Positions 30,613 through 58,120 of a stretch of DNA of 64,000 nucleotides are shown piece after piece. The notes below the pieces were generated by a model. The model made no database searches. It was not told the origin of the DNA and worked only from the letters and a program-made list of their open reading frames with translations. The position numbers were made by a program, and so were the translations under genes. Within the stretch, counting starts at the first letter, position 1, and the number at the start of each line of letters is the position of its first letter. The stretch covers positions 1,888,501 to 1,952,500 of the forward strand of contig NZ_CP045354.1 in NCBI RefSeq assembly GCF_009363435.1, read 5' to 3'. The stretch is from Labrenzia sp. THAF82. Lineage in GTDB: Bacteria > Pseudomonadota > Alphaproteobacteria > Rhizobiales > Stappiaceae.

Positions 30613-31290
30613 ATGGTGCAACGAACGTATGAACGGGTTGTTTCTCTAATAAAGAAGAAGATTGAGGACGGCGATTATAAACCTTTGAGCCGCCTCCCTG
30701 CAGAACGAGAACTGGCGTCTCATTTTGACGTCAGCCGCACAACCGTTCGTGAAGCTCTGCTTGCTTTGGAAGCCGCACGGCTCATCGAGATACGCGATCG
30801 TTCCGGTGCGTATGTCATGCCCAACCAAAATGATGACATTTCGCTTTTGCAAGCGATCAAGAGCACTCCTGGGCCTTACGAAGTGCTGCAAATGCGCAGG
30901 CTTATAGAAGGTGAAGCCTGTTTTTTAGTAGCGTCAAACGCATCTGAGCAAAGTCTTTCCCGTATTGTTCAAGCCAACAAGGCCAACGCTGCGGTCCCTC
31001 CGGACGATACTCCCGAGTTTCATGAGGCAACCCGCGCTTTTCACATGAGTATCGCCCACGCCTCGGAAAACAGCCTTTTTCCTGAACTGCTCGACTTTCT
31101 TTGGGAGCAGAAGAGCGGCAAGCTGTGGGAGGGATGGTATCGCGGAACAAGGTCGTTGAAAAACCGCTTGAAAGTCGTAGACAACAACCAGGAAATTACC
31201 GACGCGCTGACGGCGCGGCGCCCGCAGGCTGCCCGTACGGCAATGCAATATCACATTGACTGGATGATTGCCCGGTTCCTAAGCTATTGA
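30613..31290 (+). CDS. GntR-family (FadR/FCD) transcriptional regulator
   Basis: A 225-residue regulator. The winged HTH spans about residues 5-70 (SRLPAERELASHFDVSRTTVREALLALEA, described in two overlapping halves) and is followed by an all-helical FCD effector domain (EVLQMRRLIEG, FHEATRAFHMSIAHAS, ALTARRPQAARTAMQYHI) with conserved His/Asp/Glu positions for a metal-bound carboxylate ligand. FCD regulators usually sense organic acids from the pathway they control. It converges with the dehydrogenase gene (10-base gap). FadR-like palindromes in front of the ThDP gene and between the sulfatase and FGE genes suggest it controls the 31-43 kb locus. Confidence 0.92.
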   Translation: MVQRTYERVVSLIKKKIEDGDYKPLSRLPAERELASHFDVSRTTVREALLALEAARLIEIRDRSGAYVMPNQNDDISLLQAIKSTPGPYEVLQMRRLIEGEACFLVASNASEQSLSRIVQANKANAAVPPDDTPEFHEATRAFHMSIAHASENSLFPELLDFLWEQKSGKLWEGWYRGTRSLKNRLKVVDNNQEITDALTARRPQAARTAMQYHIDWMIARFLSY

Positions 31291-31300
31291 CGACTGGCGG

Positions 31301-32251
31301 TCACAGATCGTCTTCAAATTCTGACATGAGCAATTTCAGGCGGGCGAGTTTGCTGTCTCTACGCTTGAAAAGTTCCTGCGCGTCCGTATCGCCATAGTCG
31401 TAAAATCCACTGCCAGCCAGAACGCCGCTGCTTCCGTCGGCCAGCTTTTCATCCAGCTTGGGTGTCCCGGTTGGCTTGCCCGGCGGCGTATAGAGACCCG
31501 TCGCATGAATATCGCGCACAACCTGAAGGCCGGTGTAGTCAATCTTTTTGAACTGACCCATGAGGCTGAGACGCTGAGACAGGCCAAAGCGTAGGGCATC
31601 ATCGATATCGACAATGTCGGCAACACCTGTATCCAGAAGCCGGAACACTTCGCTTTCAATCGCCATCTGGATGTTGTTGGCGATATAGCCCGGAACGAAT
31701 TTCTTGAGCAGAACCGGTTTCTTGCCAATTCCGCGCAGAAAGCCGACCATCTTTGTCGCGACCTCTGGATCGGCAACAGGTGATGGCACAACGTCGACAA
31801 GATCGATCAGGTAAGGTGGCGTGTACCAGTGGACGATCAAGGAACGCGCGCGCAAGGCTGGCGGTACAAGCGGGAAGATATCAAGAAATGAAGTGTTGCT
31901 GGCAAGGACAGCGTTCTGACCGGCAAGTGGTTCGAGCCTGCAGTATAGTTCCTGTTTGACATGAGCATCCTCGACGACTGCCTCGACGATGAGATCGGCT
32001 TCAGCAACAGCTTCATCAAGCTCATGGCTTGTGCTGATGCGGGTGAGCGCTGCTTCTGCTGAAGTCTTTTCAATCAAGCCAAATTCGACGAGGTCGTCCA
32101 GCAACGCTGGTAGCCGTCCTTCAGCCCAGTTCAGACGTTCCTTTGAAATGTCCTGCAGAATAACCCTGCATCCGCCAAGAGCGTGCACAAGACCAAGCGC
32201 ATGGCCAAGAAGACCCGCACCGACGATTGTCACATTGTCATAGGTTGTCAT
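31301..32251 (-). CDS. 3-hydroxyacyl-CoA-dehydrogenase-fold NAD-dependent dehydrogenase
   Basis: A 316-residue enzyme of the 3-hydroxyacyl-CoA / L-gulonate / carnitine dehydrogenase superfamily. The N-terminal Rossmann motif is VTIVGAGLLGHALG (near residues 7-20). Catalytic region elements are ASNTSFLDI (near residue 112), HWYTPPYLIDLVDVVPS (near 136) and NNIQMAIESEVFRLLDTGVAD (near 187). Start ATG 32251 is 1 base after the stop of the ThDP gene, with GGAAG ahead of it inside that gene. Tight linkage to the ThDP enzyme suggests consecutive steps. The substrate is probably a hydroxy acid rather than a fatty acyl-CoA because no thiolase or CoA ligase is present. Confidence 0.87.
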   Translation of the reverse strand: MTTYDNVTIVGAGLLGHALGLVHALGGCRVILQDISKERLNWAEGRLPALLDDLVEFGLIEKTSAEAALTRISTSHELDEAVAEADLIVEAVVEDAHVKQELYCRLEPLAGQNAVLASNTSFLDIFPLVPPALRARSLIVHWYTPPYLIDLVDVVPSPVADPEVATKMVGFLRGIGKKPVLLKKFVPGYIANNIQMAIESEVFRLLDTGVADIVDIDDALRFGLSQRLSLMGQFKKIDYTGLQVVRDIHATGLYTPPGKPTGTPKLDEKLADGSSGVLAGSGFYDYGDTDAQELFKRRDSKLARLKLLMSEFEDDL

Positions 32252-32252
32252 G

Positions 32253-33923
32253 TTATATCTTCCAGGCCGGTTCCGGATTGCAGTCCGGGTCCGTAACAAC
32301 GTCGATAATTGCGGGTCTTTTGTTGGCTAGGGCGGTTTTTATGATGCCACCGATCTCGTCTGCCCTGTCCACGCGGTAGCCATCGATACCGAAAACTTTG
32401 GCAAGCTCGGCAAAATTGGTGGGATGGAATTCCACCAGATCACCCATCCTGCCATCCAGGTTCTCGTACAGCTTTTTCACGCTGCGCAGGCCCTGTCCGA
32501 GTGCTGAATTGTTGTTGATGACAGTGACCAGAGGCAGGTTCCAGCGCTTGAGGGTCTCAAGCTCTCCCATGTGATAGTAAAACGCGCCATCTCCTGAAAA
32601 GCACAATACCGGCTGGTCCATAGCGCCGCATTGAGCGCCGATCGCGGCTGGAAATGCCCAGCCCAGGGAACCTGCTGCGCGAAGATATTTCTGGCCGGGA
32701 TGACGGAATTCGGTGAGTTGCGCTGTCCATGTTGCGGAAAAACCTGTGTCCGCAACAAGTATCCCGTTCTCGGGGAGAGCTTTCCCGACCTCATGGGCGA
32801 GCAGTTCGGCGGGAATTAGGTCTCTAGGTTCCTTGCTTTTGCTGATCGCCTTCTGCAGCCAGTTACGTGCCTCATCTGAGCAAGCATCCAGCCAGGCCTT
32901 ACGGTCGTGCGTGATCTTGCTGTTCTTTGCCAAAGCAAGGCAGTTTAGAGTGAGATCACCTGCCAAGCCGCAGGTATTGGGGTGCCCGCGGCCGAGTTCG
33001 ACCGGATCAGCGTCAATTTGAATGACCTGTGTGGTGGGTGCGGGGATTGTCCAGTCTGAACTGATCTGATCGCCGCCATGGCATCCGACATAGATGACAA
33101 GATCTGCCTCGTTCAGCAGGCGATTGGCATAAGGTGCCGAGTAAGTGCCGACAACGCCAATGTGGTTTGGGTGTGAGGTTTCAATAACTGAACGCCCGCC
33201 CACAGATGTAGCAATAGGAATGGCGTGCTTTTCGGCCAAAACCTTGATTGCGTCACCGGCGTTTTCATAGAGGCTTGTCACGCCGCAAACCAGTATTGGC
33301 CTGGACGCAGATTCCAAAAAAGACGCGGCATTTGCAATGTCTTCCGGATGGGCGGTGCTGTTGAGTGTTGCTCCTGAACTGGAGAATGCGATGTCGGCCG
33401 GACGTCCGTCATAGGCTGCCTCTTCAACGCGGTCACCTTTGAGGCCATCCAAGTCGAGATGCACTGGTCTTCTGGTTCCAGTCTTGGTGGCACGCAGCGC
33501 ATGTCCCAGCACTCGCGGCAGCTGGTCGACCGTGCGAACCTCTGCGGTGAACTTCGTCACCGGCTGGTAAAGTGGTGCGTGTGACACCTCCTGGTAAGCG
33601 TTCCGATGCTGATGGGTGTCGGGTTTCCGTCCTGTGATAGCGACAACCGGAACGCGATCGAGATACGCATCCTGCAGCCCGGCGGCGAGGTTGGCAGCGC
33701 CAACAGCCTGAGCCATGCAAAAACCTGTCTTTCCGCTGGCTCTCGCGTAGCCGTCAGCCATATAGGCCGCTGCCTTTTCGCTATGTGCCAAAATGCGTTT
33801 TACACCGCGCTTCTCCAACTCGATCAAGGTGTGCCGAAGGACTGCATCAACGAAGAAGACGTGATCCACATCCTCCTGGCTGTCGATTGCGTCCGCGATG
33901 ATATCTGCACCTGTCCTCTGCAT
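32253..33923 (-). CDS. Thiamine-diphosphate-dependent enzyme (acetolactate synthase/2-oxoacid decarboxylase family)
   Basis: A 556-residue three-domain ThDP enzyme. The activating glutamate lies in HSEKAAAYMADGYAR (near residue 48) and the ThDP/Mg motif is GDGAFYYHMGELETL followed by VINNNSALGQG (near residues 440-475). The GDG-NN spacing and overall length match the acetolactate synthase, benzoylformate decarboxylase and glyoxylate carboligase group. It cannot be assigned to acetolactate synthase: no small regulatory subunit is present and the context is catabolic. Likely action is decarboxylation or carboligation of a 2-oxoacid made from the imported compound. A FadR-like operator is centred about 80 bases upstream of the start. 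Confidence 0.88.
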   Translation of the reverse strand: MQRTGADIIADAIDSQEDVDHVFFVDAVLRHTLIELEKRGVKRILAHSEKAAAYMADGYARASGKTGFCMAQAVGAANLAAGLQDAYLDRVPVVAITGRKPDTHQHRNAYQEVSHAPLYQPVTKFTAEVRTVDQLPRVLGHALRATKTGTRRPVHLDLDGLKGDRVEEAAYDGRPADIAFSSSGATLNSTAHPEDIANAASFLESASRPILVCGVTSLYENAGDAIKVLAEKHAIPIATSVGGRSVIETSHPNHIGVVGTYSAPYANRLLNEADLVIYVGCHGGDQISSDWTIPAPTTQVIQIDADPVELGRGHPNTCGLAGDLTLNCLALAKNSKITHDRKAWLDACSDEARNWLQKAISKSKEPRDLIPAELLAHEVGKALPENGILVADTGFSATWTAQLTEFRHPGQKYLRAAGSLGWAFPAAIGAQCGAMDQPVLCFSGDGAFYYHMGELETLKRWNLPLVTVINNNSALGQGLRSVKKLYENLDGRMGDLVEFHPTNFAELAKVFGIDGYRVDRADEIGGIIKTALANKRPAIIDVVTDPDCNPEPAWKI

Positions 33924-33997
33924 CTTCCGTTCCGATCCGTTGTGAGACTGTCACCATTCCGGTGAAATTGGTATGACCATTATATACAAAAAAACAT

Positions 33998-34012: not shown

Positions 34013-34705
34013 TTATGAAATGTCGGAATCTGGTTCTTTTTGGGAAGCACGGTCCGCACCGGCAGGTAAGAGACCTTGCCGGATCATATGCCAAACACAC
34101 ATATCCAGCCGGTCCTGTCCGAAGAATGTTTCGCCGGCCACATGGACCATTGGTGTTCCCCAGTGTCCAAGCGTTTTCTGGAGCTCTGCATTTTTCCTGA
34201 GCTCCGCATCCAACTGGTGAGGATCATCGCGGACCATCTGATCCAACATTGAAAAGTCGAGCCCGGCATGCGACATCGCGGCCGCCAATTGGTCACCAGT
34301 GTGCCAGCCGCGAGTGCCCGAGAACAACAATGCGGATAAGCGCCTGTAGCATTCGAAACCTTCTCCGCTCCTGCAGGCCGCTGCGCACAGACGTGTCAAT
34401 CGATAGATGTAAGGCTGGTGATTGGCGATTTCGCCGGTGTCCAGATCCTGCACGACTGGATCAGGGTTCGGCCAGGAAAACCGGATTTCATTCATGACGG
34501 CGACCCTTTCCGCATCGCGCCGCAGGTAGCTGAGCAAGGCAGGGTTTGCCTTGCTGAAAAATTCCGGGTTCCGGATTGCCAGGGGATAGACGGGGCGAAA
34601 ATCCAGTTGGACACCGCTTTTTGCGACTATTTGAGCAATCCGCTCGGCCGCGAGGTAGGAATAAGGCGATCTGAGCGTGACAAAAAAAGTCAGGGTTTGG
34701 GGCAT
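34013..34705 (-). CDS. 2-hydroxychromene-2-carboxylate isomerase-like (DsbA-fold, kappa-class GST) protein
   Basis: A 230-residue DsbA-fold protein without a CXXC pair. In place of it, Ser13 in TLRSPYSYLA is at the position of the glutathione-activating serine of HCCA isomerase. The C-terminal signature WGTPMVHVAGETFFGQDRLD is typical of the family. Family role: GSH-dependent isomerisation in naphthalene-type aromatic catabolism, although many members are of unknown function. It lies 10 bases behind a sulfatase gene in one transcription unit with the TctA-type permease. Its presence raises the possibility of an aromatic or enone intermediate, but no ring-cleavage enzyme is nearby. Confidence 0.85.
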   Translation of the reverse strand: MPQTLTFFVTLRSPYSYLAAERIAQIVAKSGVQLDFRPVYPLAIRNPEFFSKANPALLSYLRRDAERVAVMNEIRFSWPNPDPVVQDLDTGEIANHQPYIYRLTRLCAAACRSGEGFECYRRLSALLFSGTRGWHTGDQLAAAMSHAGLDFSMLDQMVRDDPHQLDAELRKNAELQKTLGHWGTPMVHVAGETFFGQDRLDMCVWHMIRQGLLPAGADRASQKEPDSDIS

Positions 34706-34715
34706 TTCAATTCCC

Positions 34716-36197
34716 CTAAGCAGGCGCTACTCGCTCAGGTCCGGCAGGTACCGTGCCCATCATGCGGTCGAGATGGCGTGCGAGCAAATCCGATTTCAGG
34801 GAGGCATAGGCGGGATCGTTCCACCTGCAGACAAATTCGTCGGGATCTTCGTGCAGATCAAACAACTCACCGAGGCCGGGATGCGAGTGGTAAACCGCCA
34901 GCTTGTAGCGGCCATCGCAAGTCATGCTTGCCTGGGTGTAGTGAGTGACGGCGCTGTTGCCGAGCGAGTCGTTAAAGTCGGTTACCACGCAGTCCTTGTG
35001 CGTATCCGGAATGGATTTCCCGGTCATCAAAGGGCCGAGTGATTTGCCTTGAATGGCGGGAGAGATGTCCAGTCCGACCAAGTCCAACAATGTCGGCGCG
35101 ATGTCGATTGTTTCAACCATCGCCCTGGAGCGATGACCTTTGCCAATTCCCTTGCCGGCAAAGATGAGAGGTACGCGAACCAGCCCCTCGAAGAACCGAC
35201 AACCTTTGTAGATGAGACCGTGGTCGCCGAGCAATTCGCCATGATCACTCGTAAAAATAATGACCGTGTTGTCGATCGCGCCGGTGTTTTCCAGATGATC
35301 CAGGATGCGACCGAAAGCGGCATCGAGGTTTTCAATCATGGCATAGTAGGCCGCCTTCACCTTTTTTCCGTCAAATCGATCAGGTGGTTTCGATCCGCGA
35401 ATGTCGCCTTCCTCGATCTGCTGAGTTCGTTTTTCTTCAGGCGACAGAACAGGGTTCACAGCGACCCGTTTTTGTGTCCTGACATCAAAAAAACGGGCTT
35501 GGTGTGCAATGTCGCTCTGCCGGAAAAGCGGCGGTGTCAGCGTTTCGCCGTCTCCAAATCTGGCAAGGAACCTTTCCGGCGGGTCGAAGGGAGGATGCGG
35601 ATCGAAGGGGTTGAGGCTCAAGAGCCAGGGCCCCGAGCGCGCTTCTTCCATGAAAGATATGGCGCGTTCGGCAATCCAGTTTGCCTGATGCAACTCCGGT
35701 TCGGGTCCAATGCGCAAATACTGCTTGGCGTCAGAAAACAGCATTTTCGGGTCAACGCCCTTGTTTCGCAACCAGGTCCAATATGCGTTGCTGGCCGGTA
35801 CCCGCTCCCAAGCGGGGTTCTGGCACCACTCGAAGTGGCGGTATCCATCATCGGGCCTTGATTCAAGATGAGCCGCTGTCGACAGATGCAGTTTCCCGAC
35901 GAGCCCGCAATCATAGCCATTTTCGTCGAATGTCTTGGTGATCAGTTTTTCTTCAACGGGAAAGTGGCTGTTCCCGTTTCGGTAGACCTGATGTGCAGCC
36001 GGATAGCGGCCGGTCAGAAAACTGGCCCGGCTGGGTGTGCAGATCTGGTTTTGCACATAGCAATTTTCGAAGGTTGTTCCGCTAGCCACGAGCCGATCGA
36101 TATTCGGTGTGCGTATCTCGCTATTCCCGAGCGATGCAATCGTGTCATATCGCATCTGATCGGCACAGAACCAGAGTATATTGGGTTTTGTTGCCAT
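34716..36197 (-). CDS. Type I sulfatase, cytoplasmic (no signal peptide)
   Basis: A 493-residue arylsulfatase-superfamily hydrolase. The N-terminal metal site is WFCADQMRYD and the maturation motif CTPSRASFLTGR has the catalytic cysteine at residue 53, to be converted to formylglycine. Further family elements are GLVGKLHL (near residue 100), DPHPPFDPP (near 205) and FTSDHGELLGDHGL (near 310). No signal peptide or lipobox precedes PNILWFCADQ, so it should act in the cytoplasm on an imported sulfate ester. It is 41 bases behind the TctA-type permease gene. It belongs to the choline-sulfatase/arylsulfatase-like group; the substrate is not assignable. Confidence 0.93.
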   Translation of the reverse strand: MATKPNILWFCADQMRYDTIASLGNSEIRTPNIDRLVASGTTFENCYVQNQICTPSRASFLTGRYPAAHQVYRNGNSHFPVEEKLITKTFDENGYDCGLVGKLHLSTAAHLESRPDDGYRHFEWCQNPAWERVPASNAYWTWLRNKGVDPKMLFSDAKQYLRIGPEPELHQANWIAERAISFMEEARSGPWLLSLNPFDPHPPFDPPERFLARFGDGETLTPPLFRQSDIAHQARFFDVRTQKRVAVNPVLSPEEKRTQQIEEGDIRGSKPPDRFDGKKVKAAYYAMIENLDAAFGRILDHLENTGAIDNTVIIFTSDHGELLGDHGLIYKGCRFFEGLVRVPLIFAGKGIGKGHRSRAMVETIDIAPTLLDLVGLDISPAIQGKSLGPLMTGKSIPDTHKDCVVTDFNDSLGNSAVTHYTQASMTCDGRYKLAVYHSHPGLGELFDLHEDPDEFVCRWNDPAYASLKSDLLARHLDRMMGTVPAGPERVAPA

Positions 36198-36238
36198 ATC
36201 GCCTGGCCCGTTTCTTTTCTTAGCCTTGAGGGAACCTG

Positions 36239-37729
36239 TTACGCGGACGCAAGTCTTCGGCGCTTCAACCAGGCCTGAAGGAGGGGCCAGCAGAGCGACA
36301 ATACGGAGATCGCGAGAAACGCCGCAGCAAACGGGCGTGTGAACAGGGGTTCTATGCTGCCCCCGGTCGACATCAGGCCGGATCGCAATTGTTCTTCCGC
36401 GATCGGCGCAAGGACAAAGCCGATTACAAAAGGCCCGAGCGGCATTTTAGCGCGTTCCATAACGAAGCCGACGACACCGAGTGCCAGCATGATCCAGACA
36501 TCGAAGAAGCTGTTGGCGACCGCAAAAATACCGATAACGCAGAAGAGGAGTATCGAGGCGAGCAGGTACGATCTTGGTACGTAGAGCATTTTTGCAATGT
36601 AAACGACCGCGAACATCATGATGGCGAACATGATCACATTGCCAACCAGATACGCCGTGATCACGCCGTAGGCGATTTCCGGGTTGGAGATGAACAAGAG
36701 CGGCCCGGGTTCCAGATTGTGCATGATCAATGCCCCAATCAGGATGGCGTCGACCACCGAGCCTGGAATGCCAAGAGTGATGAGCGGAATTAATGCACCG
36801 CCTACGGATGCATTGTTGGCGGTTTCAGCGGCGATCACGCCGGGTTCGTGGCCCGTGCCAAACTTTTCGGGTTCCTTAGAGGCGCTTCGTGCCATGGAAT
36901 AGGACAGCATCGACGCAATGTTTGCGCCGATGCCGGGGAGGATCCCCACCCATGTGCCAACCAGGCTCGAGCGGAGAAAATTCGGTGCGAAACGGGTCCA
37001 ATCACCGAATGACAGCAACATGCCTCGGCGGCCGAGTTTGGCGAGCGGCGGACGCATGTCAATGTTGATGATGTCCTTGAATATCTGACTGACCGCGAAG
37101 GCACCGATCAAAACCGGCAGGAGACTGAGGCCGCTTTCGAGCGATTCAAATCCGAATGTCAATCGGGTTATGCCGGCCGAGGGGTCGATGCCCGGCATGT
37201 GCAGAAGCATCCCGAAACAGGCGGCGATCAAGCCCTTCAGCAGCGATCCCTGACTCAGGCTTGACAGCATCACCAGTGCCATCAGCACCATTGTGAAATA
37301 CTCCCAGGGGCCAAAAGTTACGGCCAGCCGAGAAAACGGAGGCGCAAGGACAGCAAGAAACAGAAAGGAGACAATGCCTCCGACAAAAGAAGCGGTAATG
37401 CCGAGACCGAGCGCACGCTCCGCACGGCCCTTGAGTGTCAGCGGATAGCCATCAAAGGTCGTCATGATCGATGATGGGGTGCCTGGCATGCGCAAAAGTG
37501 TCGCTGAAATCTGACTGCCTGAGATACCCCCGACATACATACCGATCAGCAAGATGATTGCGTTCACGCTGTCCATGAAAAAAGTCAGTGGCAGTGTGAG
37601 CGTAATAAGCATCGTGGTCGTCAGACCGGGAATTCCGCCCACAACGATGCCCAGTGCGACACCCAGGAAGACAAGCGCGAATGGCAATGGCTGAAGTAGA
37701 TAAAACAGGGAATCCAAGAAAGGCTGCAT
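36239..37729 (-). CDS. tctA: Tripartite tricarboxylate transporter, large permease (TctA family)
   Basis: A 496-residue integral membrane protein with about 11-12 hydrophobic segments. TctA landmarks are GVALGIVVGGIPGLTTTM (near residues 20-37), YVGGISGSQISATLLRMPGTPSS (near 68-90, in two parts) and the second repeat LVGTWVGILPGIGANIASM (near 255), the duplicated G-rich loops of the family. Start 37729 (MQPFLDSLFYLLQPLP) is chosen because the longer open frame reaches 118 residues into tctB without membrane features. Together with TctB and the binding protein it imports an organic anion using an ion gradient. The linked sulfatases suggest a sulfated anion. Confidence 0.92.
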   Translation of the reverse strand: MQPFLDSLFYLLQPLPFALVFLGVALGIVVGGIPGLTTTMLITLTLPLTFFMDSVNAIILLIGMYVGGISGSQISATLLRMPGTPSSIMTTFDGYPLTLKGRAERALGLGITASFVGGIVSFLFLAVLAPPFSRLAVTFGPWEYFTMVLMALVMLSSLSQGSLLKGLIAACFGMLLHMPGIDPSAGITRLTFGFESLESGLSLLPVLIGAFAVSQIFKDIINIDMRPPLAKLGRRGMLLSFGDWTRFAPNFLRSSLVGTWVGILPGIGANIASMLSYSMARSASKEPEKFGTGHEPGVIAAETANNASVGGALIPLITLGIPGSVVDAILIGALIMHNLEPGPLLFISNPEIAYGVITAYLVGNVIMFAIMMFAVVYIAKMLYVPRSYLLASILLFCVIGIFAVANSFFDVWIMLALGVVGFVMERAKMPLGPFVIGFVLAPIAEEQLRSGLMSTGGSIEPLFTRPFAAAFLAISVLSLCWPLLQAWLKRRRLASA

Positions 37730-37746
37730 ACCTGCGTTCCTCTCAC

Positions 37747-38247
37747 TTAAGGCAAGTCGATAAAGAAGAACCGGGTAAAGACCCAGTAGCTGGATAGAAC
37801 CAGTGCTGCGGAAAACCCAACAATTAGAGGTAATTGCCTTACCTTCATGTCGTTCATCAAAAAGAGGATCAAAGACATGAAAGCGATGCCTGCAGGTGGG
37901 AAGGACAGGAGCTTCAGATCCATTGCGGCGACAAAACACACCGTGCAGACAAATACGATTGCAGAGAGGTATGGTCTTTGAGGCGGTAAGTCGGGGGCTT
38001 CTTCGCCCTTTGCAGATGCGTTGTTCAGAGACGGTGACTGTGCTCGCAGGGTGCGGAAACCGCGCAGCATCATGATCAGGCAAAGACCAGCCATGATAGC
38101 GGCCAATATGCGCGGCAGAGCTGCTGATCCAAGTGGCTCGAAGTTCGGCGGCGGAAGGGACCCCGCAGCGGAATAGATTGCAGCGCTGAATAGAATGAGG
38201 GCGACGCCCACGAAGACCTCCATCTTCGCCGTTTGTCTGGCCGACAT
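37747..38247 (-). CDS. tctB: Tripartite tricarboxylate transporter, small permease (TctB family)
   Basis: A 166-residue membrane protein with four hydrophobic segments, the normal TctB size and topology (FVGVALILFSAAIYSAAG, ILAAIMAGLCLIMML, YLSAIVFVCTVCFVAAM, LPLIVGFSAALVLSSYW). Start ATG 38247 is preceded by GGAGGAAC at good spacing; an in-frame codon 45 bases upstream falls in the intercistronic hairpin. It lies 17 bases before tctA. Confidence 0.9.
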   Translation of the reverse strand: MSARQTAKMEVFVGVALILFSAAIYSAAGSLPPPNFEPLGSAALPRILAAIMAGLCLIMMLRGFRTLRAQSPSLNNASAKGEEAPDLPPQRPYLSAIVFVCTVCFVAAMDLKLLSFPPAGIAFMSLILFLMNDMKVRQLPLIVGFSAALVLSSYWVFTRFFFIDLP

Positions 38248-38271
38248 AGTTTTGTTCCTCCGCACTATCCG

Positions 38272-38295
38272 CCCGTGGCTCTGACGAGCCACGGG
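38272..38295 (-). other. Intercistronic hairpin between tctC and tctB
   Basis: CCCGTGGCTC (38272-38281) and GAGCCACGGG (38286-38295) form a perfect 10-bp stem with a TGAC loop, 14 bases behind the tctC stop. No U tract follows on the transcript strand, so it is likely an mRNA stabiliser that favours the binding protein. Confidence 0.8.
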
Positions 38296-38308: not shown

Positions 38309-39295
38309 CTATTTCTTGATGTTGTTGTCTTCCGCGACCTTCTTCAGTGTCGTCAGAACAGCCAGGGACTGTTCTGTTGCTTCAGGTCCGGCCGTCCAGT
38401 ACGGATCAAGAGAGTTTTCTGAAAACCATGCCTTCATCTCATCGCTCTCAATGGCGGTCTTGATCGCCGCAGAGAGTTTTTCGGCGGCCTCCGGATCCAT
38501 ATCCTTTGGGCCGAGCCACCAGGCGGGATTTGCCCAGACCACGTCATAACCGAGTTCCTTGGCTGTCGGCACGTCCGGCAGATTGGCGAGGCGTTCAGCC
38601 CCAAAAAACACAACTGCGTTCACGCCGTTCGGCTGGAACTTCTTATATTCCTGAGCCGAAAACAGGGCGATATCCGCGTTGCCTCCAATCAATCTGGCAA
38701 GTCGGTCTGCACCACCGGGAGCACCAATCAAACGCGTTTTGAACCCTGCTGAATCAGCCAGCCATGCGCCGATTAGGTGCGGCACGGTTCCAATGCCAAC
38801 TGCCTCGACCAGGCTCTCAGGCTCTGCCTTGAGTTTCGTGACCAGGTCGTTGAGGGATTTGATTTCAGAATCGCTCCTGACGGCCCAGACCGGACTGCCG
38901 CCACCTGAAAAGCCGAGAGACGTGAAATCCTCCGGATGAATCTCATTGACGCCCAACGCATTTGAAATCAGCATTCCATGCGACCAATGCATGATGGTGT
39001 GGCCATCTTGATCAGCGCTCAGGACTTCCCGGGCAGCGTTTGCTGATGCGGCGCCGGGCTTGTTCACGATCACCATGGGTTGCGCGAGCAACTCGTTGTC
39101 ATTGATGTACTGCGAGATCTTGCGGGCAATGGTATCCGTGCGACCGCCTGGTTTGAAACCGACATAGACCTTGATCGGTTTGTTCGGAAACTCGGCGGCA
39201 GCCTCAGATGTGCCGAGCGCGAGCCAGCCGGGGGTTGCGGCGGCGGCTACGGCCAATCCAAGGATCGTCCTGCGCGTTGATTTGAATAAAGACAT
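38309..39295 (-). CDS. tctC: Tripartite tricarboxylate transporter receptor (TctC/Bug family), Tat-type signal
   Basis: A 328-residue periplasmic receptor. The signal peptide begins MSLFKSTRRTILGLAVAAAA, a twin-arginine pattern (S-T-R-R-T-I-L), and is cleaved near an Ala-rich site at residue 34. The mature start FPNKPIKVYVGFKPGGRTD is the hallmark of Bug proteins, followed by VVNKPGAASANAAREVL (near residue 80). GGGAGGAG precedes the start. Family receptors bind carboxylates through two water molecules in a conserved pocket. It lies 64 bases downstream of a sulfatase gene on the same strand. Confidence 0.92.
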   Translation of the reverse strand: MSLFKSTRRTILGLAVAAAATPGWLALGTSEAAAEFPNKPIKVYVGFKPGGRTDTIARKISQYINDNELLAQPMVIVNKPGAASANAAREVLSADQDGHTIMHWSHGMLISNALGVNEIHPEDFTSLGFSGGGSPVWAVRSDSEIKSLNDLVTKLKAEPESLVEAVGIGTVPHLIGAWLADSAGFKTRLIGAPGGADRLARLIGGNADIALFSAQEYKKFQPNGVNAVVFFGAERLANLPDVPTAKELGYDVVWANPAWWLGPKDMDPEAAEKLSAAIKTAIESDEMKAWFSENSLDPYWTAGPEATEQSLAVLTTLKKVAEDNNIKK

Positions 39296-40920: not shown

Positions 40921-40984
40921 AATGTCAATTTGTTTTTTTTGGTTTACTCGACCGCAACGCGGAAGAGGCTCCAGGGAGGTATGC

Positions 40985-41950: not shown

Positions 41951-42000
41951 CCGGGCGTCGCCAGGTTGAGGACCGTCTCGTTGGAAGTGGAGAGTGTCAA

Positions 42001-44379: not shown

Positions 44380-44404
44380 GACTGTTTCCTTTGTCGGCTG
44401 TCCG

Positions 44405-46923: not shown

Positions 46924-46930
46924 AATTCAC

Positions 46931-50199: not shown

Positions 50200-51120
50200 C
50201 TAATTAAATGGATCCTGCTGGCAGGCTTCCTTCAATCGCTCTGCCAGCAGTGCGGCCGCCGGGGAAAGCAGTCGGGGTGTTCGGTAGATAATTCCGGCTT
50301 CCCGGCTGGTGATGAGTTGCGGCACATCCATTTCGACAAGTCCTTTGCCTTCTGGTGATTTTAGCTGTGTCCGGGTCGTGTAGAGGAGCAAATCGGCAAG
50401 ATGCACAACGGTCATCAGAAACGTTTGCGATGATGAGACGACTTCCGGCCGTGGCGGTGCCAAGCCAAGTGTCGTTGCGCCACCATCCAGTTTTCGTCTT
50501 GCCAGATTGTTTGCCGGTGGGAGCGCCCAGTCATGTAACAGAGCTTCCGCAGCGGAGACATTTTTTCGGCCTGCTAATGGATGTTCCGGCCGGCCGACGA
50601 CAACAAGATTGTCGGTGGTCAGCTTGTCGACTTCATTTTCGTCAACACCGGCAAGAGGAAGTTCAGCTACAATAAAGTCCAGCTCGCCGGCTTCCAACCG
50701 TTCCGTCAGGCTATCATCGAAACCACCGACAATTTCCACTTTGATGTCGCGGCTTTCTTGCATCATCTCAGCGACGATTTCTGGCAGAAACCGCCTTACC
50801 CAAGAAGGACCTGCACCCACCCGAACCTCGCCTAGTCCACCTGTGCGGAGCTGGTCGACTTCGTCCAGCGCCTTGCCGACTTGTGCCAGGACAATGGTTG
50901 CATGTTGCTGGAGCCGTTCGCCTATGGGGGTCAGTTTGATCCCATGCACGCTGCGTTCCATCAAGGTTGTGCCTGTCTGTCGTTCCAGAAGTTTCAGGGC
51001 TTTCGACAAAGTCGGCTGAGCGATGTTCAATTCTTCAGCCGCTTTTGTGATGTTGCCGGTCGCCGCGACGGTGTGAAAATATGTCAGCAGTCGCAGGTCT
51101 ATCCTGTGCTTGGCGTACAT
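50200..51120 (-). CDS. LysR-family transcriptional regulator A
   Basis: A 306-residue LTTR. The N-terminal HTH is LLTYFHTVAATGNITKAAEELNIAQPTLSKAL (near residues 11-42, in parts), followed by the linker helix and the two-subdomain effector region (EVRVGAGPSWVRRFLPEIV, FIVAELPLAGVDENEVD). It is upstream of and co-directional with importer A; the palindrome at 50157-50179 immediately behind it is its probable target. Confidence 0.92.
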   Translation of the reverse strand: MYAKHRIDLRLLTYFHTVAATGNITKAAEELNIAQPTLSKALKLLERQTGTTLMERSVHGIKLTPIGERLQQHATIVLAQVGKALDEVDQLRTGGLGEVRVGAGPSWVRRFLPEIVAEMMQESRDIKVEIVGGFDDSLTERLEAGELDFIVAELPLAGVDENEVDKLTTDNLVVVGRPEHPLAGRKNVSAAEALLHDWALPPANNLARRKLDGGATTLGLAPPRPEVVSSSQTFLMTVVHLADLLLYTTRTQLKSPEGKGLVEMDVPQLITSREAGIIYRTPRLLSPAAALLAERLKEACQQDPFN

Positions 51121-51224: not shown

Positions 51225-52178
51225 TCATTTATCAAAAACCACTCGAAACCCCTGATGGGCCAAAGACGTGTCGGGCGACGCGCCGCTTCGCGCTGCAATG
51301 CGGTAGCGCCAGCAATAGGTTTGATGACACAAAAATGAGCCTCCCTTGAGCAACTTGAACCCCTTCATGGAAGCGAGCTTTTGCCGAACTGCCCTTTTCA
51401 AGGAAGGAATTTTGTAAGGCTCTGCCGCCCATTCCCAGACATTTCCAACCATATTGTAGAGGCCGAAGCCATTGGGTTCGAACGACTTCGCAGGTGCTGT
51501 GGTTAGGTGTCCGTCCAAAGCAAGGTTGTCTTGCGGAAACCGGCCTTGCCATATGTTGCAGGGTTGGAAAGTTTCATCGTCGGGTTCCCGGGTTCCCCAC
51601 GGATAAGGGATATCTCCCAATCCTCCTCGTGCGGCATGTTCCCATTCAGCCTCGGTGGGCAGACGTCCACCCACCCAGCTCGCAAATGCCTTGGCATCGT
51701 TCCACGAAACATGCACGACAGGATGATCAGGTTGCCAGTCTGCTTCGCTTCCCGGTCCTGCCACGTGTCGCCAGTTCGCTCCTTCAACTTTGCGCCACCA
51801 TTCCGTCCCGGCGACTGCCTGCGTTTCGCTTGTGCTGTCGGGAAGCTGTGCCCAGAACACGAACGACCAACCGTATTGCTCTGCGTCTGTTACATAACCG
51901 GTGCTTTGAACGAAGGCCGCATATTCTGCATTCGTGATTGTGGTTGTCGTCATTCTGAATTGACGCAACACAGGGGCCTTCCGGCTTTCCTCTCCATCAT
52001 TCGGTATCAGCGGGAACCTCGTTCCGAGAATCGCGTTCCCGCCGGGGATGACCGCCGTGTCGAGATCTGGCCTTCCGTCGCTTGATGTTGGGGTCTTTTG
52101 TTCAGCACAGTCAGGACGATCGATGAGGCCCCTGGTCGGGGTGCAGCACGCCTTGTGTGATGCCTGGTGTAGTTTCAC
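51225..52178 (-). CDS. Formylglycine-generating enzyme (FGE/SUMF1 family), copy 2
   Basis: A 317-residue FGE with a GTG start, 3 bases behind the sulfatase gene. Fold landmarks: FRMTTTTITNAEYAAFVQSTGY (near residues 73-94, in parts), HPVVHVSWNDAKAFASWVGG (near 152), AARGGLGDIPYPWG, MVGNVWEWAAEP and the copper-binding active-site cysteines Cys284 and Cys289 in GGSFLCHQTYCWRYRIAAR. The N-terminus contains ACCTPTRGL, which mimics a CxPxR sulfatase motif. It is similar to FGE copy 1 over the whole core. Genetic coupling to the sulfatase at 52182 makes that enzyme its most likely client. Confidence 0.94.
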   Translation of the reverse strand: MKLHQASHKACCTPTRGLIDRPDCAEQKTPTSSDGRPDLDTAVIPGGNAILGTRFPLIPNDGEESRKAPVLRQFRMTTTTITNAEYAAFVQSTGYVTDAEQYGWSFVFWAQLPDSTSETQAVAGTEWWRKVEGANWRHVAGPGSEADWQPDHPVVHVSWNDAKAFASWVGGRLPTEAEWEHAARGGLGDIPYPWGTREPDDETFQPCNIWQGRFPQDNLALDGHLTTAPAKSFEPNGFGLYNMVGNVWEWAAEPYKIPSLKRAVRQKLASMKGFKLLKGGSFLCHQTYCWRYRIAARSGASPDTSLAHQGFRVVFDK

Positions 52179-52181
52179 TCT

Positions 52182-53726
52182 TCAGGCCTGTGCAACGCGA
52201 GGAGATTTCAAAGGCTCAGAACATTGGACGCCTTGCATCATCCGAAGGAGCATTTGAGTTTTCAATGATTGACTTTCTGGGTCGTGCCACAGGTTCTGGA
52301 TCTCATTCGGGTCTTCCTCCAGGTCAAACAGTTCTCCATGCTCTTCGGTTCTGTAGACGGAAATCTTGAAACGGTCCTCGATGTAGGTCGTTACATGGGG
52401 CATGACCGGATTGTGTCTGTTTTCACAGATTGCAAAACTGCGAGCGTCCGGACCTGTTCCCAGCCAGGTTTGCAACTGCGAAACTCCTTGCAATTCGGGG
52501 GCTGGACCAAGACCTGTAACTTCAAGAAAAGTTGGTGTCAGATCGAGCAGGCTTTGAATAGCCTTGCTCACATGACCTTCAGGTACTCGTCCCGGCCAAC
52601 TGACAATAAAGGGAATTCGCAGCATGTCTTCATAGTGAAATGGCCCTTTGGCGACCAGTCCGTGCTGTCCCAAAAAGTGCCCGTGATCGGTCGTGAAGAC
52701 GATAAGCGTGTCTTCAGTCAGGCCCTCGGCATCAAGATAGTCAAGGATGCGTCCAACCTCCTGATCCAGGAAGCTCATCATGCCGTAATAGGCGGCCATA
52801 TCCTTCTTGAGCTCGTCCTTTGGATAAAGGTGGCTGTCACAGCCGTGAGCTTCGTGCGGGTCATGCCAGCTTGCAAAGTCTGGATCAGGCTCTTGAGTTT
52901 TCGCGAAATGCGGTGCGTTGAGATCGTGTTCTCCCGGGACGACTTCACCCGGTTCCATGTCCTGCGGATCGTACATTGAGGCCCACGGTTCGGGAACCGT
53001 GTAGGGAGGGTGAGGATCCGGAAAACTTGTCCATAGGAAGAAGGGTTTTCCTTCGGTCTTTGCTTTTTCCAGGAAGGCGACAGACCGTTCACCGATCCAG
53101 GGCGTGTAGTGCAACTCCTGAGGCAATTGCCAATTCCGGTCCTTGCGGGCCCAATAGGGAGCATCTGGTGCGCGAGCAGGCGCTTTGGAGGCATCGTCGC
53201 CAGGAAGCGGCTGAAAATAGTCTGGCCAATCAGTCAATCCCTTGTCTTCAAGCCAAGCGGCATAATGCTGACCAACGTGGCTTTCATCCGCATGGTTGCG
53301 CACCAGCTCTACGTGCTCGAAACCATAGAAAGGCCCATTGAATTCGCGCCAGAAGGGGATGTCCCTCAGCAGAGGCTGTTTTTCCAGGCTATCGCCCGCG
53401 AGCGGTTGAAAATGGGCTTTCCCGATAAGTCCTGTGGCATAGCCGTGCTGAGACAACGAATTTCCGATTGTCGGAATATTTTCGTCCAGTTTGCAGCCAA
53501 TCGTCCAGGCTCCATGCTGAGAGGGATATAAGCCTGTAATAATGCTTGATCGTGATGGTGTGCAGGTGGGCGCAGGGCAATATGCCTTGTCGAAGCGCGT
53601 GCCGTTCCGGCACAACCGATCGATATTTGGCGTGTCGATTTTTGGATTGACGGCACCGAGAGCGCTGAAGTGCTGCTGGTCGGTGGTGATGAGCAAGATG
53701 TTGGTACGTTTTGTCAATTTCGTCAT
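52182..53726 (-). CDS. Type I sulfatase, importer B operon, cytoplasmic
   Basis: A 514-residue sulfatase. Start ATG 53726 (MTKLTKRTNILLITTDQQ) overlaps the permease stop by 4 bases; the longer open frame upstream is a shadow of the permease. The maturation motif is CTPSRSSIITGLY with Cys55. Other elements: IGKAHFQPLAGDSL, SFPDPHPPYTVPE (near 243) and FTTDHGHFLGQHGL (near 345). No signal peptide. It sits between the importer B permeases and FGE copy 2, a complete import-desulfate-activate unit. Confidence 0.93.
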   Translation of the reverse strand: MTKLTKRTNILLITTDQQHFSALGAVNPKIDTPNIDRLCRNGTRFDKAYCPAPTCTPSRSSIITGLYPSQHGAWTIGCKLDENIPTIGNSLSQHGYATGLIGKAHFQPLAGDSLEKQPLLRDIPFWREFNGPFYGFEHVELVRNHADESHVGQHYAAWLEDKGLTDWPDYFQPLPGDDASKAPARAPDAPYWARKDRNWQLPQELHYTPWIGERSVAFLEKAKTEGKPFFLWTSFPDPHPPYTVPEPWASMYDPQDMEPGEVVPGEHDLNAPHFAKTQEPDPDFASWHDPHEAHGCDSHLYPKDELKKDMAAYYGMMSFLDQEVGRILDYLDAEGLTEDTLIVFTTDHGHFLGQHGLVAKGPFHYEDMLRIPFIVSWPGRVPEGHVSKAIQSLLDLTPTFLEVTGLGPAPELQGVSQLQTWLGTGPDARSFAICENRHNPVMPHVTTYIEDRFKISVYRTEEHGELFDLEEDPNEIQNLWHDPESQSLKTQMLLRMMQGVQCSEPLKSPRVAQA

Positions 53727-55509: not shown

Positions 55510-55538
55510 GGAAAGAGTTGACCTTACAGAATTGGGTT

Positions 55539-55566
55539 AGGGGCCACATGCGAGATTGTGGCCCCT
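55539..55566 (-). other. Intercistronic hairpin behind importer B binding protein
   Basis: AGGGGCCACA (55539-55548) and TGTGGCCCCT (55557-55566) form a perfect 10-bp stem with an 8-base loop, 15 bases behind the binding-protein stop. No U tract, so it is likely an mRNA stabiliser. Confidence 0.8.
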
Positions 55567-55581
55567 GAATGGACACCTACG

Positions 55582-57087
55582 TCAGTAGTCTGCTGCGCCG
55601 AAATCGACGTCCGGGTTCCAATTTGCAAAGACAAGTTCGGAGCGATCCACATTTGCACCGTCTGCTTTTGCTTTCGCGAACGCGGCATCCAGCGCGCTAT
55701 TGTAGCGATCTTTAAGTTCGGACATCTGTTCCTTGACACCGGATAGCTGACCGGCGACCAGACCCTGCACGGTACGCGCAAAATTAACGTCTGGAGCAAC
55801 ATAGGCGGCAACCACCTTTGACATTTCGCCATTGCGAACCAGCGGATTGGGACCGACACGGATCTGATCGTTGAAAAGGTTCAAGATCTGTTTCGAACGC
55901 GGCGACATGTCGGCTTTGGCCACTGCTTCAGGCATGATTGGCGGATCGCCCGCACCAACCACATTTGCCCACTCGATCTGTCCTTCGAGCGTGCCAAGAT
56001 AGTGGAAGATCTCTCCAGCGATCGCTCCATTTTCGGAACCTGACCACAAGCTAATGGTGTTTGGTTTTGCGCCACCCTGACTGATCGTCAACTTGCCCTG
56101 CTTGCCGGACTCTGGCACAGGAGCTGAAGACAGGCCAAAGTCGAAATCGGGATTCTGGCTCTCCCAGGAGGGAATGTTCCACGGTCCCTGCAGGATCATT
56201 CCTGCTGCGCCCTGAGGCATGTACGCTCTTGCCTGGGGGGCGTTCAGGTTGATGAAGCCGGGGAACATGCTCCGGTCGGACTGCATGGCAAGAAGCAATT
56301 CGATCGCGGCGATATACTCATCGCTATCGAAGACATACTCTCCCGTACGCAAGTCAATGTCAGCGTCCAGGATGCCGTCCCCACCCGCGCTCGCGCCAGC
56401 GATGCGACCGATATTTCGCACAACGTCGGCCCAACGATTGAGCTGCGATCCACCAATGATGAAACCGAAGTATCTGCCCTGGCCTGCTTCAGTGATTTTG
56501 CGCGCCGCTTCCCGGAACTGGCTGTGGGTCAGCGGCTTGGCTTCAGGGTCAAATCCAGCTGCATCCATATAGGCTTTGTTGTAGAGCAGGTGAGATGCGT
56601 AGCGTTTGTTCGAGGTGAATGGCAGGCCATATGTCTTGCCCTCGAACTCGTTGATGCCAGGTAGAAACGCTCCGGACGGGAAGCCTTTTTTCCACTCTTC
56701 AATGTTGGGGATGAATTCGTCATAGGGCTGAACCCAGCCCTGGCTGACCGCATCTGCAAGGCTGAAGTTGCGCGGCAAAACAAACACGTCATGCGCAGTG
56801 TTGTTGCGAACACCAAGGGGAACGACTTTGGCAATTTCATTCCAGGGAAGCGGATCATAAATAACATCGATGCCCCGGGCTTCTCCATATTTCTCAAAGA
56901 ACTTCTTGAAGAAGACTGCCTTCTGGTCACCACTGTCGATCCAGCGGAATTTGGCTCCCTCGGGAACGGTATTCACCGGAGCGGGCACGGTCTGTGCAAT
57001 CGAAGCTCCTGTCCCAAATGCAGTCGTTGCAACAGCAGCACTTGCGCGGGTCAAAAACGAACGACGCGAAAGTTCAAATGTACTCAT
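55582..57087 (-). CDS. CUT1 extracellular solute-binding protein (family 1), importer B, Tat-type signal
   Basis: A 501-residue periplasmic receptor. Start ATG 57087 follows GGGAGG. The N-terminus MSTFELSRRSFLTRASAAVA contains the twin-arginine signal S-R-R-S-F-L, so it is probably exported folded. The mature domain has SBP family 1 features (AKFRWIDSGDQKAVFFKKFFEKYGEARG split over its first strand and helix; YGLPFTSNKRYASHLLYNKAYMDAAG near 172; MPQGAAGMILQGPWNIPSWE near 297). At about 500 residues it is longer than most in the family. Transcribed divergently from a LysR gene, with a LysR box between. Confidence 0.91.
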   Translation of the reverse strand: MSTFELSRRSFLTRASAAVATTAFGTGASIAQTVPAPVNTVPEGAKFRWIDSGDQKAVFFKKFFEKYGEARGIDVIYDPLPWNEIAKVVPLGVRNNTAHDVFVLPRNFSLADAVSQGWVQPYDEFIPNIEEWKKGFPSGAFLPGINEFEGKTYGLPFTSNKRYASHLLYNKAYMDAAGFDPEAKPLTHSQFREAARKITEAGQGRYFGFIIGGSQLNRWADVVRNIGRIAGASAGGDGILDADIDLRTGEYVFDSDEYIAAIELLLAMQSDRSMFPGFINLNAPQARAYMPQGAAGMILQGPWNIPSWESQNPDFDFGLSSAPVPESGKQGKLTISQGGAKPNTISLWSGSENGAIAGEIFHYLGTLEGQIEWANVVGAGDPPIMPEAVAKADMSPRSKQILNLFNDQIRVGPNPLVRNGEMSKVVAAYVAPDVNFARTVQGLVAGQLSGVKEQMSELKDRYNSALDAAFAKAKADGANVDRSELVFANWNPDVDFGAADY

Positions 57088-57161
57088 TTTTTCCTCCCAG
57101 TAGGTGCGGCGCACCCAATTGAAAAAATGCTAATGTGTTTCAATTGATAACGCATTTGAAT

Positions 57162-57185
57162 TTTTCTAAATTTTTGATTAGAAAA
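57162..57185. promoter_or_regulatory. LysR-type operator of importer B
   Basis: TTTTCTAA (57162-57169) and TTAGAAAA (57178-57185) form a perfect palindrome with an 8-base spacer. It lies 9 bases before the LysR start and about 75 bases before the divergent binding-protein start, the usual place for an autoregulatory LysR site. Confidence 0.7.
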
Positions 57186-57193
57186 TCTGATCA

Positions 57194-58120
57194 ATGATCT
57201 ACGAACCAGAACTCCTCCGTAGGCTGGTGGCTATTGTTGAGACAAACAACATGCGCGCGGCCGCAGAGATGGTGGGGGTTACACAGCCGGCCCTTACACG
57301 TAGCCTCAAGCTTCTTGAAGCCGCGGTTGGCGGCGTGTTGTTCGAGCGGCGCGACAGAGGTCTGCATCTGACAGCGTTGGGCAAACTTGTACATGCTCAG
57401 GCGCGGCATCTACTGCGAGAACATCAACTCGCGGAAGCTGAACTCAATGCACTTCAAAACGGAGAACAGGGTCAACTGCGCATTGCCGCGGCTCCTGTCT
57501 GGATGACCACAATACTGCCTCCTGCAATTGCAAAGATGCATCAACGGTTTCCCAAACTCTTTATCAAGCTGAAATCGACCAACTACACCGAAGGAGTGGA
57601 GGGTCTGAAAGAGGGGGAGTTTGATGCTTTTTTTGGTGGGTTTCAAAGACGCGAGTCTTTGCCCTCATATCTGGTTCGGAAAGCACTTTTTAACGCCAAG
57701 CTTGTGATCGTTGCGAATGCAGAACATCCAATTCATGACCGCAGCGCCGCCGCAGAGGATTTGCTCGCGCAAACATGGCTCTCATATCAAAGCGAAGTTG
57801 CCTATCTGGACACCATCAATGCCACTCTGGATGACACGGCGGAGATTAGTATAGGTGCAAACCTGCAGTGCGATTCCATGTTGACGGCGCTGGAACTCCT
57901 CAGACAAGGCGATTATCTGGCAGTTTTGCCAAGCAGTTTTTTGAATTCTGACAGCGGAAAAGGTTTGAAAATTGTGTCAACCGATCTCCCCGCAATCCGA
58001 TTTGCTTCAGGTCCGATATACCGGAGAAGCCTGGAAGCCAATCATGCGATGACGATGATGCTTGACCTTACTAAAGCCCAGGTTGCTTCCCTCTCGAACT
58101 GGGGGGCGGAATTTTCCTGA
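57194..58120 (+). CDS. LysR-family transcriptional regulator B
   Basis: A 308-residue LTTR. The HTH region (LLRRLVAIVETNNMRAAAEMVGVTQPALTRSL, near residues 5-36, in parts) is followed by the effector domain (LRIAAAPVWMTTILPPAIAKM, VANAEHPIH). It is divergent from the importer B operon and probably controls it in response to the imported compound or its desulfated product. LysR A and LysR B are clearly different in sequence, so the two importers respond separately. Confidence 0.92.
   Translation: MIYEPELLRRLVAIVETNNMRAAAEMVGVTQPALTRSLKLLEAAVGGVLFERRDRGLHLTALGKLVHAQARHLLREHQLAEAELNALQNGEQGQLRIAAAPVWMTTILPPAIAKMHQRFPKLFIKLKSTNYTEGVEGLKEGEFDAFFGGFQRRESLPSYLVRKALFNAKLVIVANAEHPIHDRSAAAEDLLAQTWLSYQSEVAYLDTINATLDDTAEISIGANLQCDSMLTALELLRQGDYLAVLPSSFLNSDSGKGLKIVSTDLPAIRFASGPIYRRSLEANHAMTMMLDLTKAQVASLSNWGAEFS

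Follow-up and report, generated by a model that had tools for sequence, protein, structure and literature searches.

The 64,000-nucleotide stretch of the Labrenzia sp. THAF82 genome analysed here (hereafter the window; bases 1,888,501–1,952,500 of a 6.4-Mb genome in one contig) carries at window positions 30,613–58,120 a gene island of three modules, A to C, with four complete formylglycine (FGly)-type sulfatases (S1a to S1d), a TctABC transporter, two CUT1 importers and two formylglycine-generating enzymes (FGE1 and FGE2). The best explanation of this island is, in our judgement, quite probably that of a modular and shuffled system for importing sulfated compounds and then desulfating them, a reading based on gene content, the absence of leaders, conserved linkage to importers, fold and active-site residues, all of them features of the sequence. 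In each module, a regulator and one or two formylglycine hydrolases of the cytosol would accompany an importer of the inner membrane with its receptor: TctABC with S1a and S1b in module A, a CUT1 importer with S1c and a DUF4432 protein in module B, and another CUT1 importer with S1d, FGE2 and a LysR regulator in module C. Small sulfated molecules from other microbes or algae would be taken up whole and desulfated inside by sulfatases whose active-site Cys FGE1 and FGE2 would have turned into formylglycine in the cytosol, and the freed skeleton would feed central metabolism. A sequence-only reading of the window had already proposed import followed by desulfation; uptake first and cytosolic desulfation are supported by the leaderless proteins and the conserved linkage described below, but the novelty is smaller than that reading implied, because intracellular desulfation after uptake has already been described in other bacteria.

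The four sulfatases all lie on the minus strand: S1a (34716..36197, FGly motif CTPSR), S1b (39360..40838, CVPCR), S1c (45388..46923, CMPAR) and S1d (52182..53726, CTPSR). PF00884 covers nearly the whole profile in each of them (127–171 bits), the assignment of S1c being complemented by its predicted fold, and none has a leader, so that the earlier description of four complete sulfatases with a CxPxR motif and without signal peptide holds. The open frame of S1d as called is overlong, its start lying at about 53726, where it overlaps the end of the upstream permease gene. Leaders were judged from hydrophobicity and start codons at the predicted starts, not with SignalP, and they were detected in the positive controls, i.e., the two CUT1 binding proteins and TctC. 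Since start sites are predicted, corrected starts, or Tat (twin-arginine translocation) export without a classical leader, might place the sulfatases in the periplasm, and S1d does have a TTG 35 codons upstream, within the permease gene; the stretch added by this TTG is nevertheless Arg-rich and not leader-like, and the S1d orthologues in G067 and G061 (G and L numbers designate the genomes and loci of our survey) have an open frame of just 513 residues. For the other three, there are no alternative upstream starts: an open stretch of 83 codons precedes S1a and holds no ATG, GTG or TTG, 11 codons separate S1b from the upstream stop, and a single codon stands between the in-frame stop and the start of S1c. 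Corrected starts, to which the sequence-only reading had pointed as a possible source of leaders, thus yielded nothing leader-like in S1a–S1d. Moreover, among the relatives of S1c bounded by an in-frame stop (n = 78), 29 have at most 15 residues before the first-strand motif and 50 have at most 23, and the FGly motif is found at residue 43–64 in all 24 leaderless sulfatases of a hand-picked set from related islands and loci, which leaves out those of L149, L150 and L060–L064 and the truncated one of L154. The annotated start of one sulfatase (L147:19920) cuts into the fold, and the only start codon upstream is a TTG adding seven residues. Because there is no room before the first strand, and because of the position of the FGly motif, a classical leader is excluded for many members of the S1c family and very unlikely for the others, and we regard a periplasmic location of the island sulfatases as extremely improbable.

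The importers are also encoded on the minus strand. Here and below, domain calls are those of Pfam, except for TctB, the two permeases of module C and the LysR regulator of module C, which were identified by translation and homology. TctA (36239..38083, PF01970, the domain beginning at about residue 136 of the open reading frame, ORF), TctB (37747..38292, an overlapping ORF) and the TctC receptor (38309..39295, PF03401, with a leader) are all present, TctB being recognised by position and translation only: several hydrophobic stretches are visible in its translation, and a homologue lies between TctA and TctC in L039 and L051. The CUT1 set of module B is complete, with a solute-binding protein (48713..50056, PF01547, with a leader), permeases B1 (47758..48633, PF00528) and B2 (46931..48046, PF00528, start within the ORF) and an ATPase of the MalK/UgpC type (43300..44529, PF00005, PF17912 and PF08402, likely start within the ORF). 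Module C has a solute-binding protein with a Tat-like leader (55582..57114, PF01547, RR motif) and permeases C1 (54586..55509) and C2 (53723..54589). The TctABC transporter and both CUT1 importers announced by the sequence-only reading are thus all there, except that the second CUT1 importer (53723–57114) is without an ATPase of its own, the sole CUT1 ATPase of the island being that at 43300–44529. CUT1 and tripartite tricarboxylate transporters (TTT) are the importer types of the island, and Pfam revealed no SsuABC-like sulfate-ester ABC importer beside its sulfatases.

A named-genome scan with two peptide patterns yielded at least 565 relatives of S1c, and the extent to which sulfatases and importers belong together was examined on the 80 best of them. 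Importers were labelled using phmmer against seeds from the window and the fetched loci (score ≥40), and two unannotated plasmid stretches (L198 and L199) were left out of the counts. In 71 of these 80 loci, part of an importer is located no more than 5 kb from S1c, vs. 3 of 35 control loci (Fisher's p = 6e-17, ignoring both relatedness and the taxon mismatch of the controls, of which 20 come from the window genome and 15 from five other family genomes, not from the taxa of all 80). Where both flanks reach at least 5 kb, the proportion is 53 of 57, while an importer part is found at 400 bp or less in 37 loci and on the same strand in 34. Importers are plentiful in this genome (37 SBP_bac_1 loci and four TctC loci), which would favour a chance clustering of unrelated transport operons and sulfatases; however, the controls argue against it, as do the modules that remain together after rearrangement in G067 and the islands that recur elsewhere, and we consider such a coincidence very improbable. 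The class of the importer is variable: CUT1 alone in 35 loci, TTT alone in 22, TRAP alone in three, CUT2 alone in one, mixtures in 10 and none in nine. On the tree of S1c (81 rows, a quick tree without bootstrap), the CUT1/TTT label changes seven times, with six of the changes forced by starred branches, and S1c thus appears constant while its importer is exchanged. As for S1d, a module C-type binding protein and permeases accompany it in nine of the 10 loci inspected outside the species of the window (L036, L038, L050, L137, L138, L139, L147, L148 and L195), four of which (L137–L139 and L195) are near-copies with S1d 99% identical.

Within the family, S1c was recovered in 12 and S1d in five of 87 genomes, and S1a and S1b each in four of 45 genomes of the genus (all at set E-value limits); across the class, the S1d search returned two of 385 genomes, the window genome among them. 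Related genomes provide natural replicates of the island. The fetched stretch (L051) of G044, a genome of the window's species, contains all of module A and the greater part of module B, and S1d lies just beyond on the same contig; G069 has modules B and C without A; in G067, module C is followed by A, S1c and DUF4432 are joined to C, and the importer of module B is absent from the fetched stretch. These arrangements indicate that modules are lost and rearranged yet stay clustered, and the neighbourhood search in relatives suggested by the sequence-only reading thus finds sulfatase–importer modules recurring in family genomes. Other copies of S1c in the family stand beside CUT1 importers (L042–L044) or TctA (L041, L045–L049). 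Farther away, the Shinella plasmid pfSHIWSC3, typed as conjugative, bears an FGE, two CUT1 importers and four sulfatases in about 19 kb, near insertion sequences, and pPABY1 of Salipiger abyssi has TctABC with S1c, an FGE, a CUT1 importer with S1a and a third sulfatase. Neorhizobium petrolearium combines five sulfatase genes (one cut by the end of the stretch), an FGE, DUF4432, a CUT1 importer and an SsuABC-like importer, and Falsirhodobacter algicola combines TctABC, two sulfatases (S1a-like and S1b-like) and CUT1 genes. Finally, a 1.6-Mb alphaproteobacterial genome (G247, L195) carries the importer of module C and five sulfatases, four of which, S1d and S1c among them, are in tandem, an arrangement shared by three uncultured alphaproteobacterial assemblies (L137–L139); in L138, a second CUT1 importer and Gfo/Idh and ThuA genes follow. 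Judging from isolate names, we take these four to be marine. Their loci each hold five leaderless sulfatases, and PhyH dioxygenases are present.

Outside these lineages, the S1c gene of an Enterobacter (L065) matches 552 of 5426 complete E. coli genomes at 60–80% DNA identity (best 76%). In the three E. coli loci inspected (L196, L197 and L200), the S1c relative is the last gene of a triple PTS IIC–PTS IIB–sulfatase (PTS, phosphotransferase system) between rlmC and artJ, the IIC component being of the galactitol family (PF03611). The PTS-linked sulfatase of Enterobacter and E. coli is leaderless and 46% identical to S1c over 508 columns. As in the island, a leaderless S1c-type sulfatase thus stands directly behind an importer, but this importer is a galactitol-family PTS, without binding protein and without an FGE alongside. 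In a Sinorhizobium meliloti plasmid (L064:1-10608), we also observed an S1c gene near cysDN and a sulfotransferase, i.e., genes for sulfation and desulfation close by.

The nature of the hydrolysed ester was approached by comparing nine active-site positions with those of the genome's own BetC-like proteins (residues taken from PMC5870055, numbering of SmCS). All nine choline-sulfatase positions are kept in S1a and S1b, eight in S1d (where the pocket Asn is replaced by Ile) and six in S1c. The equivalents of D14, D296, H297, H201 and K309, i.e., metal ligands and the His/Lys general-acid pair, are present in all four, and the sulfate-binding Lys and His of the GKxH motif are kept in S1a, S1b and S1d, while S1c has D-H-x-H instead and is devoid of both the pocket Asn and the canonical sulfate-binding Lys. 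D-H-x-H, which lies outside the search patterns, is found in 79 of the 80 S1c relatives; CMPAR is found in all 80, a figure that is partly built in because one of the search patterns includes part of this motif. Given the positions kept, S1a, S1b and S1d are well supported as predicted sulfatases, and S1c is a sulfatase-fold FGly-type hydrolase with a putative sulfate ester as substrate. Despite this likeness to rhizobial BetC, which belongs to the same superfamily, a choline sulfatase identity was rejected for all four, their scores with TIGR03417 (189, 200, 109 and 192 bits for S1a, S1b, S1c and S1d, respectively) being far under the cut-off of 433.

A different possibility is that part of the set, and S1c in particular, consists of phosphodiesterases or phosphonate monoester hydrolases (PMHs), which belong to the same superfamily and to which Ugp-like CUT1 importers would supply phosphoesters. 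The model of S1c (mean predicted local distance difference test, pLDDT, of 82.5) does not discriminate, structural matches being alike for sulfatases and PMHs. Against this possibility, Lys and His are conserved in S1a, S1b and S1d. According to the choline-sulfatase study, SmCS matches SpAS1 completely and RlPMH at nine of 11 active-site residues (PMC5870055). We assume that this Lys/His pair corresponds to the two residues differing between SmCS and RlPMH. For S1c itself, another sulfatase-like gene is present in 24 of the 80 loci, and the relative in L065 has an aryl-sulfate sulfotransferase at a distance of 2 kb and an anaerobic sulfatase maturase at 8 kb; altogether, PMH-type activities seem to us unlikely. 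More tentatively, and with slightly less than even confidence, we suggest that S1c founds an undescribed family of sulfatases committed to the cytosol, with a remodelled pocket (D-H-x-H for Lys-x-His, no Asn). This family might be a portable cartridge placed behind at least five importer classes (CUT1, TTT, TRAP, CUT2 and PTS) in Alpha-, Beta- and Gammaproteobacteria, occurring in roughly one complete E. coli genome in ten (the three inspected have it behind a phosphorylating PTS) and matured in some genomes by no known FGly enzyme.

Regarding maturation, both FGE1 (40922..41950, plus strand, catalytic motif GGSFLCHQSYCFRYR) and FGE2 (51225..52178, minus strand) are embedded in the units, as the sequence-only reading had it. 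PF03781 matches them at 231 and 239 bits, with the catalytic Cys pair kept in the motif GGSFLCHQ[ST]YC[FW]RYR, and FGE2 matches structures of FGE (sulfatase modifying factor 1) at an E-value of 1e-79, human FGE aligning along the domain, both catalytic Cys included. Because bacterial FGEs are generally cytosolic, the missing leader of FGE1 and FGE2 is not diagnostic. The two are the only FGE-grade genes of the genome, a third PF03781 ORF being weak, in two pieces and EgtB-like by eye. The genome has 11 PF00884 loci, of which nine show a C-x-P/A-x-R motif; L010 and L011 have no FGly motif and resemble other members of the superfamily, and one locus (L003) has a leader, as judged by eye. A Cys-Cys motif was also noticed near the N-terminus of eight of the nine FGEs compared (FGE1 and FGE2 of the window, L147, L148, L150, L151, L152 and L155), in some cases resembling the enzyme's own substrate motif (CCTPTR, CCAPHR); it could be a pseudo-substrate or a metal site.

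The compounds imported can be approached through the importers and the accessory genes. We infer that the importers carry the substrates of the sulfatases and that a sulfate ester is cleaved; the CUT1 modules (B and C) would deliver sugar skeletons from sulfated sugars, and the TTT module (A) would deliver sugar acids or other carboxylates from their sulfated forms. The binding proteins matched only general sugar-binding structures. The DUF4432 protein of module B (44405..45391, minus strand, PF14486, aldose-1-epimerase fold) has a model with a pLDDT of 84, the best match of which is 3ty1 (TMq 0.77; B. subtilis GalM, 0.64), and its H122, H198 and E293, which we take to be catalytic, are invariant in 12 sequences. 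DUF4432 occurs in 17 of 80 S1c loci vs. 0 of 35 controls, and the nearest importer is CUT1 in 17 of 18 DUF4432 loci (window counted), an association nonetheless rejected as proof of a sugar substrate since the tree contains only six independent pairs. Labelled sugar-catabolic families are found in 29 of 80 S1c loci (17 of them via DUF4432) vs. 4 of 35 controls, and on plasmids the loci have neighbouring genes annotated, among others, as sugar-acid dehydratases, aldolases, lactonases and mutarotases. In module A, dgoK (41833..42945, plus strand, PF05035, 2-keto-3-deoxygalactonokinase-like, true start within the ORF) matched no NCBIfam family.

The island could alternatively serve sulfur scavenging, rather than carbon supply, in the manner of the ats genes of Pseudomonas. 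In the cluster atsACBR-sftR-atsK-sftP of Pseudomonas sp. UW4, the genes of an arylsulfatase, an importer of sulfate esters and a LysR regulator stand together (PMC3596284), and atsA of P. aeruginosa rises more than 95-fold under sulfur starvation (PMC12581299). In the same vein, S1b relatives on two Neorhizobium plasmids adjoin an SsuABC-like sulfonate/sulfate-ester importer. In the window, by contrast, the modules rely on importers for sugars and carboxylates and also encode a sugar-acid kinase and a protein of mutarotase fold, and several plasmid loci have neighbouring genes with sugar-catabolic annotations. Furthermore, seawater is rich in sulfate, as is generally known. Scavenging is thus, in our opinion, an improbable main function, and we retain import followed by desulfation for the use of the skeleton.

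A number of results nevertheless weigh against this interpretation. First, linkage is not universal: within 5 kb of S1c, the labelling recovers no importer in nine of the 80 loci, and contig ends do not explain L087, L124 and L126. Among the others, L073, L086, L121, L133 and L134 have a flank shorter than 5 kb on one or both sides, L133 having an NMT1-type receptor upstream, while L078 has CUT1 permeases just past 5 kb. Likewise, a relative of S1d in Paenibacillus (L149) is without importer alongside, and the stretch around a relative of S1b in the archaeon Halomontanus (L150) contains further sulfatases and an FGE, while its annotation shows no importer. Second, the active site of S1c departs from that of choline sulfatase at three of nine positions, and hydrolysis of phosphoesters or phosphonates by S1c is conceivable. 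Third, a labelled FGE is present in only three of 80 S1c loci, and five of 12 S1c-bearing family genomes (G033, G048, G062, G063 and G072) have neither an FGE (E-value ≤1e-45) nor an anaerobic sulfatase maturase above the family cut-off, G062 having one weak maturase match (79 bits). The FGE survey covered 11 of these 12 genomes; the remaining one, G023, has a maturase. In G247, outside this survey, no anaerobic maturase was matched. A third maturation route or a lower-scoring FGE is possible in the five genomes. Fourth, the association of DUF4432 with CUT1 is not significant on the tree (sign test, six independent pairs). In the few searches made, dgoK and the genes of the ThDP (thiamine diphosphate) enzyme, the 3HCDH-type dehydrogenase and the DsbA-fold protein of module A showed no conserved link to sulfatases beyond close relatives, and any role given to these four is a guess. 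Fifth, the GC content of the island is ordinary (0.541 vs. 0.533–0.565), and a recent foreign origin argued from composition was rejected for this reason; its mobility is suggested by the patchy distribution and the plasmid copies.

The bacterium of the window belongs to a group that is probably marine. In the sea, the turnover of sulfated glycans is commonly deduced from polysaccharide utilisation loci and from sulfatases that are secreted. Pseudomonas AtsA is a cytosolic enzyme. Import with intracellular desulfation being known from Pseudomonas ats and Bifidobacterium breve, the mechanism proposed here is a variant. The UW4 cluster resembles the island in that its arylsulfatase is accompanied by an ABC importer for sulfate esters and by a LysR regulator (PMC3596284), but this importer is of the aliphatic-sulfonate type and there is one arylsulfatase, whereas in the window the importers are of the CUT1 and TTT types and four sulfatases occur together with two FGEs. 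Similarly, B. breve UCC2003 uses an intracellular sulfatase for growth on GlcNAc-6-sulfate and cross-feeds on sulfated monosaccharides (PMC7326374), but it belongs to another phylum and its system is dedicated to a single sugar. What is new is the modular exchange of importers, the scale, and the S1c active site without the canonical sulfate-binding Lys; in the literature searched (titles and abstract openings, few subscription journals), neither the island type nor the S1c family was found described. If a widespread intracellular route with swapped importers is real, cross-feeders would find public goods in sulfated monomers and small acids, which probably holds for streamlined plankton with 1.6-Mb genomes as well, and with the PTS version of E. 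coli the question could be addressed in a laboratory organism.

The remaining genes of the island complete its layout. Module A begins with a GntR/FCD regulator (30613..31290, plus strand, PF00392 and PF07729), followed on the minus strand by the 3HCDH-type dehydrogenase (31301..32299, PF02737 and PF00725, likely start within the ORF at MTTYDN), the ThDP enzyme of the acetolactate-synthase superfamily (32253..33923, PF02775/00205/02776) and the DsbA-fold protein (34013..34705, PF01323), which by name is presumably HCCA-isomerase/GST-kappa-like, then S1a, TctA–TctB–TctC and S1b, with FGE1 and dgoK on the opposite strand. Module B consists of the CUT1 ATPase, DUF4432, S1c, the two permeases, the binding protein and a LysR regulator (50200..51120, minus strand, PF03466 and PF00126), and module C of FGE2, S1d, the two permeases, the binding protein and a divergent LysR-type regulator (57194..58120, plus strand). 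The dehydrogenase scores under the cut-off of all 20 NCBIfam families listed and the ThDP enzyme under that of the best 25 of 52; the latter has only two plasmid relatives at an E-value ≤1e-120 (Achromobacter) and no solved relative at ≤1e-60. The sequence-only reading had assigned the processing of the released skeletons to dgoK and to the ThDP/dehydrogenase pair, neither of which found support: no aldolase or dehydratase adjoins dgoK, even if its pathway could be completed by two PF01081 aldolase genes far off in the genome, and in the 80 S1c loci the single gene labelled by the ThDP seed is of inositol type (in L087). In that Chelativorans locus (L087:8001-13460), the S1c gene adjoins inositol-catabolism-like genes (IolD and IolE by eye), a hint of sulfated inositols.

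Past the island, a fifth sulfatase, choline-sulfatase-like by eye, crosses the end of the window (from 63954; L016:2454-3989). It is surrounded (window 62836-64000 and L016:1336-8806) by a Rieske oxygenase identified by Pfam and by SDRs (short-chain dehydrogenases/reductases), BKACE-like and carnitine-dehydrogenase-like genes named by eye, which perhaps form a sulfated-betaine pathway. Upstream of the island, the plus strand of the window contains an open reading frame of 2656 residues (11452-19422).

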